Below, in pieces: positions 33,567 through 39,514 of a stretch of DNA of 64,000 bases; within the stretch, counting starts at the first letter, position 1, and every line of letters starts with the position of its first letter. A program made the position numbers and the translations under genes. Origin of the DNA: Chitinophagales bacterium (GTDB lineage Bacteria; Bacteroidota; Bacteroidia; Chitinophagales; CAIOSU01); NCBI GenBank assembly GCA_026003335.1, contig BPHB01000001.1:1947001-2011000 (forward strand), given 5' to 3'. Under the pieces are notes generated by a model. That model worked only from the letters and a program-made list of their open reading frames with translations. It searched no databases and was not told the DNA's origin.

Positions 33567-34724
33567 TCACAGTGCTTCCTGATAGAGCCTCCTGAAGTCT
33601 TGCCGTGTTACAGGGCGCGGATTATTGGGGTGGCAGAAATCTGCAATAGCAAGATCAGCAAGGGTATCCAGGTGCTCTTCTTTTACTCCTACATCTCTTA
33701 GCCGAGGGGGTATGCCTATTTTGCGGTTCAAGGCTACCAGAAACTCTATTACTGCTTCACCGCTTTCATCTTTCAGATTCATTGCCTGCGCAATGCGCTT
33801 AAATTTCACTTCCATGCCCGGATATTGCAGGTTGTATCGCATACCATAGGGTAGATGCACCGCATTAGCCAGACCATGGTGCGTATCTAAAAGAGCTGAA
33901 AGCGGATGTGCCAGTGAATGCACCACACCCAGCCCTTTCTGGAAAGCAATGGCACCCATCATGGAAGCAAGCATCATATACGCTCTTGCTTCAGGGGTAG
34001 GGTTGTTTACCGCAATATCCAGCCAGTGGGCAATCAAATGTATGCCTTCAAGCGCAACACCTTCACAGATGGGGTGAAAATTTTTTGCCAGATAGGCTTC
34101 CATGTTATGCGTTAAGGCATCCATACCCGTAGCAGCGGTGATGGCCGGAGGCAGCTCATAGGTAAGTTCCGGGTCGGCAAACACCTGTGCAGCCATCAGG
34201 CGGGGTGAAAATAAAATGCGCTTCTTTCGGGTATCATCTTCCGCAATGATAGCGCTGCGACCCACTTCGCTGCCCGTGCCGGCCGTTGTGGGTATCGTGA
34301 CAAAATGCGGAATAACTCCAGTTATGTATTTATCTCCTCCGATTAAATCATCATAATCCCACAGGTCGCGTTCATGGTAGGCATGCAGTGCTATGGCGCG
34401 TGCTACATCCAACGCTGCACCGCCTCCTATGCCCACGATGCTGTCGCATTCCACAGCACGAAACAGGTCCCCTCCTCTTAATACATCTGACTTAACCGGA
34501 TTTTTATGTATATCGGAAAACACTACCGGCTGAAGCCCTTCCTCCTTTAGATGCCTGATAATTTTTTTGAAAAATTCCAGCTCTGCAACCGTGGAATCGG
34601 TAACTACAAGAGGTTCCCGCAACCGATGGGACTTCAAATGTGTGGGCAGTTCACGAACCACACCTGTCCCGAACCGAATCGGAGCAGGAAAACTGAAACT
34701 ATAAGCCTGTTGCGTTGAATACAT
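33567..34724 (-). CDS. iron-containing (group III) alcohol dehydrogenase
   Basis: A 385-residue NAD(P)-dependent dehydrogenase. The dinucleotide site is in IVGIGGGAALDVARAIAL. The metal ligands follow the family spacing: Asp and His in TGMDALTHNMEAY (four apart), then two His fourteen apart in HSLAHPLSALLDTHHG. TIPTTAGTGSEVGRSAII is also typical. It is the last gene of the operon with NhaC, a GS-like ligase and an ethanolamine permease. That suggests oxidation of an alcohol group carried by the imported amine, such as gamma-glutamyl-ethanolamide. Broad-range alcohol or aldehyde conversion is the conservative alternative. A possible internal promoter lies in the 43-base gap upstream. Confidence 0.9.
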   Translation of the reverse strand: MYSTQQAYSFSFPAPIRFGTGVVRELPTHLKSHRLREPLVVTDSTVAELEFFKKIIRHLKEEGLQPVVFSDIHKNPVKSDVLRGGDLFRAVECDSIVGIGGGAALDVARAIALHAYHERDLWDYDDLIGGDKYITGVIPHFVTIPTTAGTGSEVGRSAIIAEDDTRKKRILFSPRLMAAQVFADPELTYELPPAITAATGMDALTHNMEAYLAKNFHPICEGVALEGIHLIAHWLDIAVNNPTPEARAYMMLASMMGAIAFQKGLGVVHSLAHPLSALLDTHHGLANAVHLPYGMRYNLQYPGMEVKFKRIAQAMNLKDESGEAVIEFLVALNRKIGIPPRLRDVGVKEEHLDTLADLAIADFCHPNNPRPVTRQDFRRLYQEAL

Positions 34725-34742
34725 ATGCTTTCAAGTGAGCAG

Positions 34743-34750
34743 CAAAGATA
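34743..34750 (-). promoter_or_regulatory. possible internal -7 element before the iron alcohol dehydrogenase
   Basis: TATCTTTG on the minus strand is an exact TAnnTTTG match, 19 bases upstream of the dehydrogenase ATG and inside the short gap after nhaC. It could give separate expression of the dehydrogenase. Chance occurrence is possible. Confidence 0.35.
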
Positions 34751-34767
34751 ATGGTTGCCTTTGGTGA

Positions 34768-36228
34768 TTAATTTTGCTTTTGGCTATTATCGTTTTTCAA
34801 CCTTACTATGCGGATATTCAGGTATCCAAACAACATGGTCATCACCGGACTGAGAAGGTTGAAGAAAGCATACAGGAAATAATCCCCTGTAGCCACGCCC
34901 AATACTCCGGAATGATAAGCTCCGCAAGTGTTCCAGGGCACCAATGCAGAGGTAACTGTTCCGCTGTCTTCCAGGGTTCGGCTCAGCACCCGGGGGTCCA
35001 AGCCACGTTTTTTATATTCTTCGCGAAACATGCGTCCTGGCACCACAATAGCCAGATATTGATCAGAGGCAGTCAGGTTAAATACTATACAGGATAACGC
35101 TGTGGTAGAAATCAATGCTCCTTCACTTCGGGACATGCCCAACAGGGTGGATGTGATGGTGCGCAGCATCCCAGTCACTTCCATTACACCGCCAAAGGTC
35201 ATTGCGCATACAATGAGCCACACCGTATCCAACATGCCGGCCATGCCGCCAGAAGTAAGCAGGTCATTTACCATTTCATTATCAGTTTGAATTTGAATGG
35301 TGCGAGTCATAGCTTCAGTAACAGCGCGGTAAGCTGCTTTCCACGGGTCATCGCTGATGCCGGAAATAACCGGAAGCAAGTGTGGCTGAAAGAGGATAGC
35401 CGCAACAGCACCCAGCAAGGTACCGGCAAGTAAGGCTGGAATAGCCGGAACCCGCATGGCTATCATGCCCACCACCAGAAGCGGAACGACAAACAACCAT
35501 CCCGAAATGTTGAACTTGGAGGCTATGGCTGCCTGTAAAGTATGAATACCTTCCACCTGTCCTGAAACATTTGAAAACAGGCCTATACCCAGATACAGCA
35601 ACAAGGCTACCGAAAGGCTGGGTAGGGTGGTTAGCGTCATATATTTGACGTGTGTAATCAGGTCAGTCCCCGCCATGGCAGAAGCCAGATTGGTTGTATC
35701 GCTGAGGGGTGACATCTTATCGCCAAAATAAGCTCCGCTGATAATTGCTCCGGCTATGATACCTTCCTGTATGCCCAGGGCTTTGCCTATGCCAAGCAGA
35801 GCAATACCTACTGTGGCTGCTGTGCTCCAGCTGCTGCCGGTAGCCAAAGACACTATGCTGCAAATAATGCAGGCAGCAAACAGGAAAATGCCCGGATTGA
35901 GTATGTTCAATCCATAATAAATCATGGCAGGTACGATGCCGCTGAGCATCCATGTTCCGGCCAGCGAGCCGATTAACAACAAAATGAGTATTGCCCCCAT
36001 GGCATTGGAAATACCTGATACAATACCATCCAGAATGGTTTGCCAGGAGTACCCCAGCTTCATGGCAATAGCACCGGCCACTGCTGCACTTAGCAACAAA
36101 GCCATTTGATTGGCTCCACCTAAGGCATCATCTCCATAGATAAAAACCACATTAACCACCAGCAGGACAAGCAAAAAAATTATCGGAATCAGCGAGAGTA
36201 ATAAGGAAGGTCTGGACGGAGTGCGCAC
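34768..36228 (-). CDS. nhaC: NhaC-type Na+/H+ antiporter
   Basis: A 486-residue membrane protein with about eleven hydrophobic segments. The family core is clear: CSIVSLATGSSWSTAATVGIAL, IISGAYFGDKMSPLSDTTNLA and a late SGTVTSALVPWNTCGAYHSG. NhaC exchanges sodium for protons; some relatives move malate/lactate or other ions. The start is a GTG nine bases after the GS-like gene's stop, with no ATG nearby that fits. Being in the amine operon, it may balance sodium brought in with the substrate or handle pH stress; that is inferred. Confidence 0.92.
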   Translation of the reverse strand: MRTPSRPSLLLSLIPIIFLLVLLVVNVVFIYGDDALGGANQMALLLSAAVAGAIAMKLGYSWQTILDGIVSGISNAMGAILILLLIGSLAGTWMLSGIVPAMIYYGLNILNPGIFLFAACIICSIVSLATGSSWSTAATVGIALLGIGKALGIQEGIIAGAIISGAYFGDKMSPLSDTTNLASAMAGTDLITHVKYMTLTTLPSLSVALLLYLGIGLFSNVSGQVEGIHTLQAAIASKFNISGWLFVVPLLVVGMIAMRVPAIPALLAGTLLGAVAAILFQPHLLPVISGISDDPWKAAYRAVTEAMTRTIQIQTDNEMVNDLLTSGGMAGMLDTVWLIVCAMTFGGVMEVTGMLRTITSTLLGMSRSEGALISTTALSCIVFNLTASDQYLAIVVPGRMFREEYKKRGLDPRVLSRTLEDSGTVTSALVPWNTCGAYHSGVLGVATGDYFLYAFFNLLSPVMTMLFGYLNIRIVRLKNDNSQKQN

Positions 36229-36237
36229 CGTTTCGGT

Positions 36238-37605
36238 CTAAATGATTTCAAAATAGCGCTTCAGCTCCCAGTCGGTCACTGCTTTGGCAAACTGTAGCCA
36301 TTCCCACTCGCGCGTTTGGGTAAAGTGTTCAACAAACTGTTCTCCCAGCAGTTCTTTGGCTAGATCAGAAGCCTGCATGATGCGCGTAGCCTCACGAAGA
36401 CCAGAGGGCAATACACCGAATTTCAGGTCGCGGTAGCCGTTGCCTATGGTTTGCGGTTGCGTAAGTTTAAGGTTTTTTCTGATGCCATAGAGACCGGAAG
36501 CCAGGCAGCCGGCCATTGCCAGATAAGGATTTACATCAGAGCCTACCACGCGGGTTTCCAGCCGCGCTGCATTTTTACTGCCGGTTAATACCCTCAGTGC
36601 CGTTGTACGATTATCCATGCCCCAGGTAAGTGTAGTCGGAGCCCACGCTCCTTCCACGAGGCGCTTATAGCTGTTTACCGTAGGAGCATACAAGGGAAGA
36701 ATGTGGGGCATACAATACAATTGCCCTGCAATATAACTTTTCATCAGGGCGCTCATCTTATGCGTATCAGAATCGTCATAGAATAAATTTTTCTTTCCCT
36801 CCCACAGGCTTTGATGAACATGTCCGCTACAGCCTGGCAAAGATTCATTCCATTTAGCCATGAAGCTGGGCATAACCTGGTGGCGATAACCTATCTCTTT
36901 TACTGCTGATTTGAACAATGTTGCACGGTCGGCTGCTTCCAGCACATCGGCATACATAATAGCTGCTTCATATACACCAGGCCCCGTTTCGGTATGCAAC
37001 CCCTCAAGGGGAACGTTAAACTTTTTCAAATCATCAAACAATGCGTTAAAAAAATCAGCCTTCAGAGAGCTACGCAAAATGGAATAGCCAAACATGCCGG
37101 GAGTCATAGGGGTTGGGCGGACGTAATTTTTGGCAGCCCAACTGTCGGGTGTTTCCGCAAAGTTGAACCACTCAAATTCCTGAGAAAAAACCGGTGAGAA
37201 ACCGGCTTTAATTGCCTGTTGCCGAATTCTTTTCAACAGGTTGCGCGGGCATACCGGTGAAGGCTCCCCTTGATCATTTACAAAGTCCGCAAGAAAAAAG
37301 GGTATGTCGTTATCCCAAGGCACACGTCTGAAGGAGGCAAGATCAATCCGCGCATGTGCATCCGGATATCCTGTATGCCAGCCCGTGTATCTTATATTAT
37401 CATAGGCGACATCAGCCGAATCCCAGCCAAAAACTACATCGCAAAAGCCAAAACCTTTCTCCAGAATGGAAAAAAATTTTTCCCGATGGATTACTTTTCC
37501 TCGGAGTATGCCGTCAATATCGGTAATTGCCAGTTTTACCTTACCTGCAGGAAAATTTTTCACATAGTGCAGGGCAGCATTGCTTCCGGTACTGCTTTTA
37601 GCCAT
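36238..37605 (-). CDS. glutamine synthetase-like gamma-glutamyl-amine ligase
   Basis: A 455-residue ATP-dependent ligase of the glutamine synthetase fold. Active-site segments visible are FSQEFEWFNF, TETGPGVYEAAIMYADVLEAA, GCSGHVHQSLW, YAPTVNSYKRLVEGAWAPT, WGMDNRTTALRVL and ARLETRVVGSDVNPYLAMAG. The FDGSS element that forms the ammonium pocket in true GlnA is not present; the region reads VVFGWDSADVAYD. This points to an amine other than ammonia as acceptor, as in PuuA, GlnA4 or IpuC-type enzymes. It overlaps the ethanolamine permease gene by eight bases, making gamma-glutamyl-ethanolamide the first product to test. Polyamines or other amines remain possible. Confidence 0.86.
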   Translation of the reverse strand: MAKSSTGSNAALHYVKNFPAGKVKLAITDIDGILRGKVIHREKFFSILEKGFGFCDVVFGWDSADVAYDNIRYTGWHTGYPDAHARIDLASFRRVPWDNDIPFFLADFVNDQGEPSPVCPRNLLKRIRQQAIKAGFSPVFSQEFEWFNFAETPDSWAAKNYVRPTPMTPGMFGYSILRSSLKADFFNALFDDLKKFNVPLEGLHTETGPGVYEAAIMYADVLEAADRATLFKSAVKEIGYRHQVMPSFMAKWNESLPGCSGHVHQSLWEGKKNLFYDDSDTHKMSALMKSYIAGQLYCMPHILPLYAPTVNSYKRLVEGAWAPTTLTWGMDNRTTALRVLTGSKNAARLETRVVGSDVNPYLAMAGCLASGLYGIRKNLKLTQPQTIGNGYRDLKFGVLPSGLREATRIMQASDLAKELLGEQFVEHFTQTREWEWLQFAKAVTDWELKRYFEII

Positions 37606-38953
37606 GAGGATGTTTTTTATTCAGAGAAGGCTCCACAAAGAAATAAAATCCGATGAAAGAAAGCAGCATTATTCCAAAATACACGGCCGCAAGGCGAAGG
37701 TTAAAGACAGTCATTGCTATGAGGGAAAACGCGCTGATAACCAAAGCTACTGCCGGAAACCACGGATACAAAGGCACCTTGAAAGGCCTTTCCATATCGG
37801 GTTCGTTTTTTCTTAATACAAACAGTGCTATCATGGAAATGACATACAACGTCAATGCGCCAAAGCAGGCTATGGTTATGATTTCACCGGTTTTTCCGGT
37901 AAGGAGTGCAACAATACCCAGGCTCATATTAAACAACAAGGCATTGGCCGGAGTGTGAAAACGCGGGTGTACCTTTCCTAAAGTCACCGGTGCATAACCG
38001 TATCTACCGAATTCAAATGTGGTGCGTCCGGCAGCAAGAATAATTCCATGAAACGAAGCTACCAGCCCGAACAGGCCAATGGTGATAAGCAGATGATACA
38101 GCAGGTGATCTTCGCCTACTACTCTGGCCAGCGCCAACGGGAGGGGCGAATCGGAAGTGATGATCTGGCCGTCCGCCCCTGTCTGCGGGGTACCCGTGGG
38201 ATACACTACTGCTTCCCAGCCAGCTACGCCAACCGAAGCAGTAAAAGTGAGGATACACAGAACAACCAATGTAGCAATAGCCGAACCGAATCCTAATAGC
38301 ACATTGCGCTGCGGGTCAACGGTTTCTTCTGCCACATTTGCCACACCCTCAATGGCCAGAAAAAACCAGATGGCAAAAGGTATTGCCGCAAATACACCAC
38401 GAAAACCATTAGGGAAAGCATTGCGCTGCAAATTTTCCCACTCTAAATGCGGTAAGGTAACTTCGGCAAACAGCAGTAATTCACCAACAGCAAGCACCGT
38501 AATGAGTAGTTCAAAGGTAGCAGCAGCTTTTACCCCGTAAATATTCAGAGCAGTAAAAAGCAGGTAAGCGGCAATGGCAATGGCAAGAATAGGAATCTGC
38601 GGAAAGAAAATATGAAAATAGGCGCCTATGGCAAAGGCAATAGCTGGAGGAGCGAAGATAAACTCTATGTTTTGCGCCATTCCCCCAATGAAACCCCAAC
38701 GGGGGCCCAATGCGCGCGTAGCATAATCAAAGGCGCCTCCGGCTTTCGGAATAGCACATGCCAGCTCGGTGTAACCAAAGGTAAAGGTGACATACATGAT
38801 AATAATGAATGCTGTGGCTATGGCCAGTCCCAAGGTTCCTCCCTCAGCGAGGCCAAGATTCCACCCGAAATAGTCACCGGAAATCACATACCCCACACCC
38901 AGTCCCCACAGTATCAGAGGCCCCAGGGTGCGTTTCAATTGTGGTTGCGTCAT
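37598..38953 (-). CDS. eat: ethanolamine permease (APC superfamily)
   Basis: A 451-residue amino-acid/polyamine/organocation transporter with twelve predicted helices. The N-terminus LGPLILWGLGVGYVISGDYF and GWNLGLAEGGTLGL is the hallmark of the ethanolamine permease subgroup. Other family marks are FTFGYTELACAIPKAGGAFDYA, FFLAIEGVANVAEETVDPQR and FHGIILAAGRTTFEFGRYG. It heads a four-gene operon with a GS-like ligase, NhaC and an iron alcohol dehydrogenase. Substrate naming rests on family resemblance; a related amino alcohol is possible. A weak -7-like TTAATTTG lies just upstream at 38965-38972. Confidence 0.85.
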   Translation of the reverse strand: MTQPQLKRTLGPLILWGLGVGYVISGDYFGWNLGLAEGGTLGLAIATAFIIIMYVTFTFGYTELACAIPKAGGAFDYATRALGPRWGFIGGMAQNIEFIFAPPAIAFAIGAYFHIFFPQIPILAIAIAAYLLFTALNIYGVKAAATFELLITVLAVGELLLFAEVTLPHLEWENLQRNAFPNGFRGVFAAIPFAIWFFLAIEGVANVAEETVDPQRNVLLGFGSAIATLVVLCILTFTASVGVAGWEAVVYPTGTPQTGADGQIITSDSPLPLALARVVGEDHLLYHLLITIGLFGLVASFHGIILAAGRTTFEFGRYGYAPVTLGKVHPRFHTPANALLFNMSLGIVALLTGKTGEIITIACFGALTLYVISMIALFVLRKNEPDMERPFKVPLYPWFPAVALVISAFSLIAMTVFNLRLAAVYFGIMLLSFIGFYFFVEPSLNKKHPHG

Positions 38954-39139: not shown

Positions 39140-39514
39140 ATGGCATTAAATGTATTTGGTGAGCCGCTGATACCCTGCAGTAAGCGACCGCTCACCGGTT
39201 TTTATCGTGATGGCTGCTGCAACACAGGAGAAGACGATATCGGAGTGCATACAGTATGCGTTGTGGTAACGGCCGAATTTTTGGAGTTCTCTAAAAGCAG
39301 AGGTAACGACCTCAGCACCCCGCGTCCGGAGTATATGTTTCCCGGCCTGCAGCCCGGTGATCGCTGGTGCATTTGTGCAGCCCGATGGGTAGAAGCATGG
39401 AAAGCGAGCAAGGCTCCGAAAGTAATTCTGGAAGCTACCCATGAACGCACCCTGGATTATGTCAGTCTGGAGGAGCTGGTGAAGTTTGCTGCCAGAGAAA
39501 TCAAAAGTGAATAA
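39140..39514 (+). CDS. DUF2237 family protein
   Basis: A 124-residue cytosolic protein of the DUF2237 family. It matches throughout: NVFGEPLIPCSKRPLTGFYRDG, CCNTGEDDIGVHTVC, TAEFLEFSKSRGNDLSTPRPE, GLQPGDRWCICAARWVEA and ILEATHERTLDYVSLEELV. Several conserved Cys and His suggest a possible metal or redox role, but no function is established. It is divergent from the ethanolamine permease gene and convergent with the nitronate monooxygenase-like gene, five bases away. Confidence 0.88.
   Translation: MALNVFGEPLIPCSKRPLTGFYRDGCCNTGEDDIGVHTVCVVVTAEFLEFSKSRGNDLSTPRPEYMFPGLQPGDRWCICAARWVEAWKASKAPKVILEATHERTLDYVSLEELVKFAAREIKSE

Follow-up and report, generated by a model that had tools for sequence, protein, structure and literature searches.

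A putative cobalamin-independent γ-glutamyl route for ethanolamine in a Chitinophagales operon and its Bacteroidota relatives

Ethanolamine from phosphatidylethanolamine, a common membrane-lipid fragment, is an abundant source of nitrogen and carbon. How a bacterium that encodes an ethanolamine-type permease and no EutB might use this compound is the question raised by a four-gene operon in the window analysed here, a 64 000-nucleotide stretch of the genome of a Chitinophagales bacterium (C1:1947001-2011000 of a 3.9 Mb genome with a completeness rating of 100 %). An earlier reading of these letters (the sequence-only reading) had proposed a route of import, γ-glutamylation, oxidation and hydrolysis. 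This route was supported by what was observed, namely the gene content, order and conservation of the operon, the family membership and catalytic residues of its products, genome-wide co-occurrence and the absence of EutB. Cobalamin-independent catabolism of ethanolamine via γ-glutamylation is therefore considered the probable function of the system, of which we infer each reaction and its substrate from sequence. The operon comprises the following genes, in order from the first to the last.

37598-38953, minus strand: permease of the APC superfamily, ethanolamine permease (Eat) type (AA_permease, TIGR00908)
36238-37605, minus strand: glutamine-synthetase-like amine ligase, putative γ-glutamyl-ethanolamide synthetase (Gln-synt_C alone, PF00120, 305.8 bits)
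34768-36228, minus strand: NhaC-type Na+/H+ antiporter with a GTG start (Na_H_antiporter, TIGR00931)
33567-34724, minus strand: iron-containing alcohol dehydrogenase (Fe-ADH), putative γ-glutamyl-ethanolamide dehydrogenase (PF00465 and PF25137)

The permease and ligase open reading frames overlap by 8 bases, with 9 bases between the ligase and NhaC and 43 between NhaC and the Fe-ADH; the same four genes, span and spacing had been described in the sequence-only reading. Scans for promoters and terminators gave counts close to the shuffled expectation.

In the proposed pathway, the Eat-type permease would import ethanolamine and the ligase, at the expense of ATP, would couple it to the γ-carboxyl group of glutamate, which would trap the ethanolamine and mask its amine. 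The Fe-ADH would then oxidise the free hydroxyl to give γ-glutamyl-aminoacetaldehyde, an unlinked aldehyde dehydrogenase (ALDH) would convert this to γ-glutamyl-glycine, and a C26 (PuuD-type) hydrolase encoded beside the ALDH would cleave γ-glutamyl-glycine to glycine, with glutamate regained. Successive alcohol and aldehyde dehydrogenases are consistent with a substrate that bears both an amine and a primary hydroxyl.

The last two enzymes of this scheme had been reported as missing from the window, which proved correct, and a search of the whole genome for the missing steps located both of them, as an adjacent pair approximately 167 kb from the operon. When the genome was searched with the ALDH of a relative, an ALDH gene was found at C1:1810816-1812183 whose product was 60-61 % identical to the ALDHs of the relatives' operons, a match far above that of every other aldehyde dehydrogenase of the genome. 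Beside this ALDH, on the same strand, lies the one strong C26 hydrolase that the genome encodes (pair near C1:1810801-1813168). In one relative (L147) the operon itself is completed by an ALDH and a hydrolase that are, respectively, 55 and 54 % identical to this pair.

Conservation of the gene set was investigated in the 80 ligase loci nearest to that of the window in the GTDB genome collection, a sample chosen by ligase similarity and hence biased towards near kin. The permease was present at 64 of these loci. At 51 the Fe-ADH followed on the same strand, and at 42 the hydrolase as well as the ALDH followed. The commonest layout, found at 31 loci, carried on one strand the permease, the ligase, the Fe-ADH, a C26 peptidase-type hydrolase and the ALDH. 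At eight loci (L007, L010, L027, L044, L050, L053, L067 and L069) the hydrolase and the ALDH were fused in a single gene of approximately 694 codons, as exemplified by L007:10548-12629, in which residues 45-210 represent the hydrolase and residues 236-687 the dehydrogenase. Such fusions are good evidence that hydrolase and ALDH belong to one pathway. The gene set, with the exception of NhaC, was thus conserved in relatives beyond what chance would give.

The association extended beyond the immediate neighbourhood of the ligase. Among 61 relatives, the ligase was found in 12 and the ALDH in exactly the same 12, whilst the Fe-ADH was present in 11 of the 12 and in one further genome that was 78 % complete (Fisher's exact test, P about 6e-13 for ligase and ALDH and about 3e-10 for ligase and Fe-ADH, shared ancestry being ignored). 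In the window's own family the pathway genes were scattered over different contigs, so that linkage does not explain the association. Among 296 genomes sampled from the phylum, close orthologues of the ALDH and orthologues of the Fe-ADH with at least 60 % identity occurred in the same six genomes, all of which possessed the ligase; none of these six carried EutB, which was detected in eight other genomes of the sample. The lack of EutBC noted in the sequence-only reading extended to the whole genome as far as EutB was concerned, since a search with PF06751 found no EutB in the window genome or in 60 relatives (61 genomes in all), with Escherichia coli as a positive control.

The ligase itself belongs to the glutamine synthetase family but falls below the cut-offs of three models within it. 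It scored 201.7 bits against the type I GlnA model TIGR00653 (cut-off 429.15) and 198.4 bits against the PuuA-type model NF045547 (cut-off 650), and it also failed the type III model TIGR03105, its scores lying below half of all three cut-offs. Alignment with the genome's own GlnA revealed that Glu and His at the metal site and Arg at the glutamate site are retained, whereas the FDGSS sequence of that GlnA, the ammonium-site motif of glutamine synthetase, has no counterpart, as the sequence-only reading had claimed. The position of the flap glutamate (E327 in the numbering of the Salmonella enzyme) is occupied by Trp; Trp or Phe is also found there in IpuC and in the ligases known for ethanolamine from Ruegeria and Chromohalobacter, which likewise lack FDGSS and retain the metal site. 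On account of the low model scores, the missing FDGSS and the Trp at the flap, together with an intact metal site, the protein is most likely, as judged from its sequence, an amine ligase and not a glutamine synthetase.

The other PF00120 genes of the genome encode the type I GlnA and two proteins of 367 (with FDGSS) and 727 residues. The genes for the latter two lie side by side on contig C3 of the same genome (L004:1108-2211 and L003:865-3048), and their products have sizes like those of type II and type III glutamine synthetases. As the remaining members of the family thus look like glutamine synthetases, the window ligase is the only evident amine ligase of the genome. Its predicted structure (mean pLDDT 83) gave as its top match Csal_0679 of Chromohalobacter salexigens (PDB 5dm3, Z 43.5), with ordinary glutamine synthetases within one Z unit of this match, and the fold therefore leaves the substrate of the ligase undecided.

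A substrate is suggested by the permease, which scored 436.2 bits against the ethanolamine permease model TIGR00908 (cut-off 381.75). In four Bacteroidota genomes that possess eutB, the gene directly adjoining it encodes a permease with 43-47 % identity to that of the window and a score above the same cut-off. The APC permeases of isopropylamine-type ligase clusters were only about 25 % alike to the window permease, and this over partial length. It is the match to the Eat model, the resemblance to permeases adjoining eutB and the suitability of alcohol and aldehyde dehydrogenases for an amine with a primary hydroxyl that point to ethanolamine. A related permease of Thermomicrobium, annotated eat, has a dehydrogenase gene and another glutamine-synthetase-like gene nearby.

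The Fe-ADH possesses metal-ligand motifs and grouped with the module-linked Fe-ADHs of other Bacteroidota in one clade (support 98). Direct orthology with the Fe-ADH of Ruegeria was not supported, as the two are 36 % identical and fall in separate clades. Fe-ADHs 44 % identical to that of the window also occur where no close ligase is encoded; in one such genome (L173:3163-6220) an ALDH (39 %) immediately precedes the Fe-ADH (44 %).

Several observations weigh against the assignment to ethanolamine. In the tree, the window ligase and the known ethanolamine ligases (Csal_0679 and that of Ruegeria) formed separate clades with supports of 98 and 99, the former lying nearer to a proteobacterial group and IpuC, so that specificity is not readable from orthology. 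The permease and the ligase were adjacent on their own at 14 of the 80 loci, and ligase orthologues that are 58-64 % identical occur in other Bacteroidota beside a 347-residue protein of no known family and an HAD phosphatase, a setting in which the ligase may serve other amines. Since these orthologues have a different set of partners, it is the permease, the Fe-ADH and the ALDH together that predict the pathway, and not the ligase alone. Finally, the co-occurrence tests take no account of shared ancestry. In respect of the placement called for in the sequence-only reading, the model cut-offs separated the ligase from GlnA and PuuA, and the tree set it apart from the IpuC clade as well as from Csal_0679 and Ruegeria; direct orthology with a known ethanolamine ligase was accordingly rejected. 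Both this tree and that of the Fe-ADH were quick trees with some long branches, and Streptomyces GlnA4 was not among the ligase sequences.

The position of the ligase leaves room for another amino alcohol as substrate, such as 3-amino-1-propanol (which would give β-alanine), 2-amino-1-propanol or a similar primary one: the ligase clade lies apart from the known ethanolamine ligases and nearer to IpuC, which acts on isopropylamine-type substrates, and alcohol and aldehyde dehydrogenases would suit any primary amino alcohol. We regard this as unlikely, given that the permease scores above the cut-off of the ethanolamine model and is similar to those beside eutB and that the operon, unlike isopropylamine-type clusters, has no P450 or ferredoxin. 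A polyamine pathway deserves comparison because in the Puu pathway of Escherichia coli, too, γ-glutamyl masking is followed by an aldehyde dehydrogenase and a C26-type hydrolase. Ligase, ALDH and C26 hydrolase together amount to the Puu set, and PuuD belongs to the same family as the hydrolase; γ-glutamylation, oxidation, aldehyde dehydrogenation and PuuD-type hydrolysis could then act on putrescine or another polyamine. Such a role appears highly improbable, however, for the ligase scores 198 bits where the PuuA-type cut-off is 650, the permease matches the ethanolamine model, and the conserved operon has, in place of the FAD amine oxidase of the Puu pathway, an Fe-ADH for which a polyamine offers no need. 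Equally hard to sustain is the notion that the ligase detoxifies or stores amines and that its neighbours are incidental. Homologues with the permease only, or with no pathway gene nearby, speak for it, but in nearly all cases the relatives with permease and ligase alone hold the alcohol dehydrogenase and the ALDH elsewhere in the genome. Ethanolamine catabolism via γ-glutamylation thus remains the reading that we prefer.

NhaC, which scored 417.5 bits against TIGR00931 (cut-off 370) and is the sole gene of its family in the genome, was not found in any of approximately 100 related ligase loci. The sequence-only reading was therefore right to place it in the operon of the window, but the gene does not belong to the conserved module and was rejected as a member of the pathway. 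We take it as a lineage-specific addition, perhaps for Na+/pH balance, with no conserved role in the pathway. The permease gene has a divergently oriented neighbour at window positions 39140-39514, a gene for a DUF2237 protein some 190 bases away, which was not found beside the operon in relatives.

Further observations concern the distribution of the ligase. The ligases of the window's family-mates were identical to those of metagenome-assembled genomes (MAGs) labelled Sphingobacteriales or Chitinophaga, and that of another genome of the same order branched with Flavisolibacter, so that the organism of the window probably belongs to an uncultured lineage on the Chitinophaga side of the Bacteroidota. 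One locus labelled as a Beijerinckiaceae (Alphaproteobacteria) MAG (L073) has a ligase that branches inside the Bacteroidota and a full Bacteroidota operon, and is probably a misbinned contig. The protein of approximately 347 residues mentioned above is conserved in L113 (2857-3900), L110, L112 and L114-L123, beginning -14 to 129 bases after the ligase orthologue; it had no Pfam or PDB match, contains the motifs IIAKLSYFGKFEHF, VDWNIGNF and RWDYDWFR, and by eye resembles the APH/choline-kinase fold. The HAD phosphatase was seen there where checked (L114). On a plasmid of the gammaproteobacterium Legionella lytica (L166:6929-11576), a ligase (46 %), an ALDH, an Fe-ADH and a glutamine amidotransferase of the type annotated as GMP synthase lie in a row, approximately the same kinds of enzymes.

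Routes of this type have been described in other phyla. In Streptomyces, conversion of ethanolamine to glycine and glutamate begins with GlnA4, for which, in agreement with the sequence-only reading, there is enzyme evidence of γ-glutamyl-ethanolamide formation (PMC6529630). The same route was recognised in Phaeobacter by proteomics (PMC10132767), that of Chromohalobacter comprises the families PF00120, PF00465, PF00171 and PF05013 (PMC9397018), and in Chromohalobacter salexigens, Agrobacterium and Phaeobacter the components are ETAGA, GETADH, GAADDH, GGAH and the TRAP transporter EtoX (PMC10132767, PMC9397018). On plasmids of Ruegeria and Aminobacter we found a ligase, an ALDH, an Fe-ADH and an N-formylglutamate-type amidohydrolase together. 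The present system shares with Chromohalobacter and Phaeobacter the PF00120 ligase, the PF00465 iron dehydrogenase, the PF00171 ALDH and the lack of EutBC. It differs in its Eat-type APC permease where theirs is a TRAP transporter, in the C26 hydrolase (PF07722) of the window genome where theirs is PF05013, in the clades of its ligase (approximately 33-36 % identity) and Fe-ADH, and in the location of hydrolase and ALDH, which lie away from the operon and are fused in some relatives. Neither a PF05013 amidohydrolase nor a TRAP transporter was found at the locus, no genome-wide search for PF05013 having been made.

With the route of Streptomyces coelicolor, compared at the level of its published description, it has in common γ-glutamylation as the first step, followed by a dehydrogenase, an aldehyde dehydrogenase and an amidohydrolase yielding glycine and glutamate; a putative permease is present in some Streptomyces species as in the window, whereas the alcohol step is assigned to a predicted short-chain dehydrogenase and not to an Fe-ADH (PMC6529630). 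IpuC, the γ-glutamyl-isopropylamide synthetase, is 38-39 % identical to the window ligase and shares its active-site changes, but its clusters carry a P450, a ferredoxin and an unrelated APC permease, and the window ligase does not fall inside its clade. The Eut system (EutBC, with or without a microcompartment) has the same proposed substrate and, in Bacteroidota, the same permease family next to eutB; it yields acetaldehyde and ammonia, whereas the route proposed here would yield glycine and glutamate with no need for B12.

The novelty implied by the sequence-only reading holds only in part, as EutBC-free use of ethanolamine by the same enzyme families had already been described (PMC10132767, PMC6529630, PMC9397018). 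The pathway itself is not new; its Bacteroidota form, with an Eat permease, a C26 hydrolase and a ligase of another clade, is. No report of a γ-glutamyl ethanolamine pathway in Bacteroidota was found in a literature search from which subscription papers were mostly excluded. We suggest tentatively, with slightly more doubt than confidence, that this is a widespread form put together separately from the routes of Proteobacteria and Streptomyces, in which case the masking of ethanolamine by γ-glutamylation would have evolved on more than one occasion.

In genome surveys, ethanolamine use is usually inferred from eutBC, and EutB is rare in this phylum (8 of the 296 genomes sampled). Current family models label the parts of the present system only as relatives of glutamine synthetase, 4-hydroxybutyrate dehydrogenase or succinic-semialdehyde dehydrogenase. 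If the proposed pathway is correct, Pedobacter, Chitinophaga and uncultured lineages from lakes and groundwater would possess a B12-free route for ethanolamine that surveys based on eutBC have missed.

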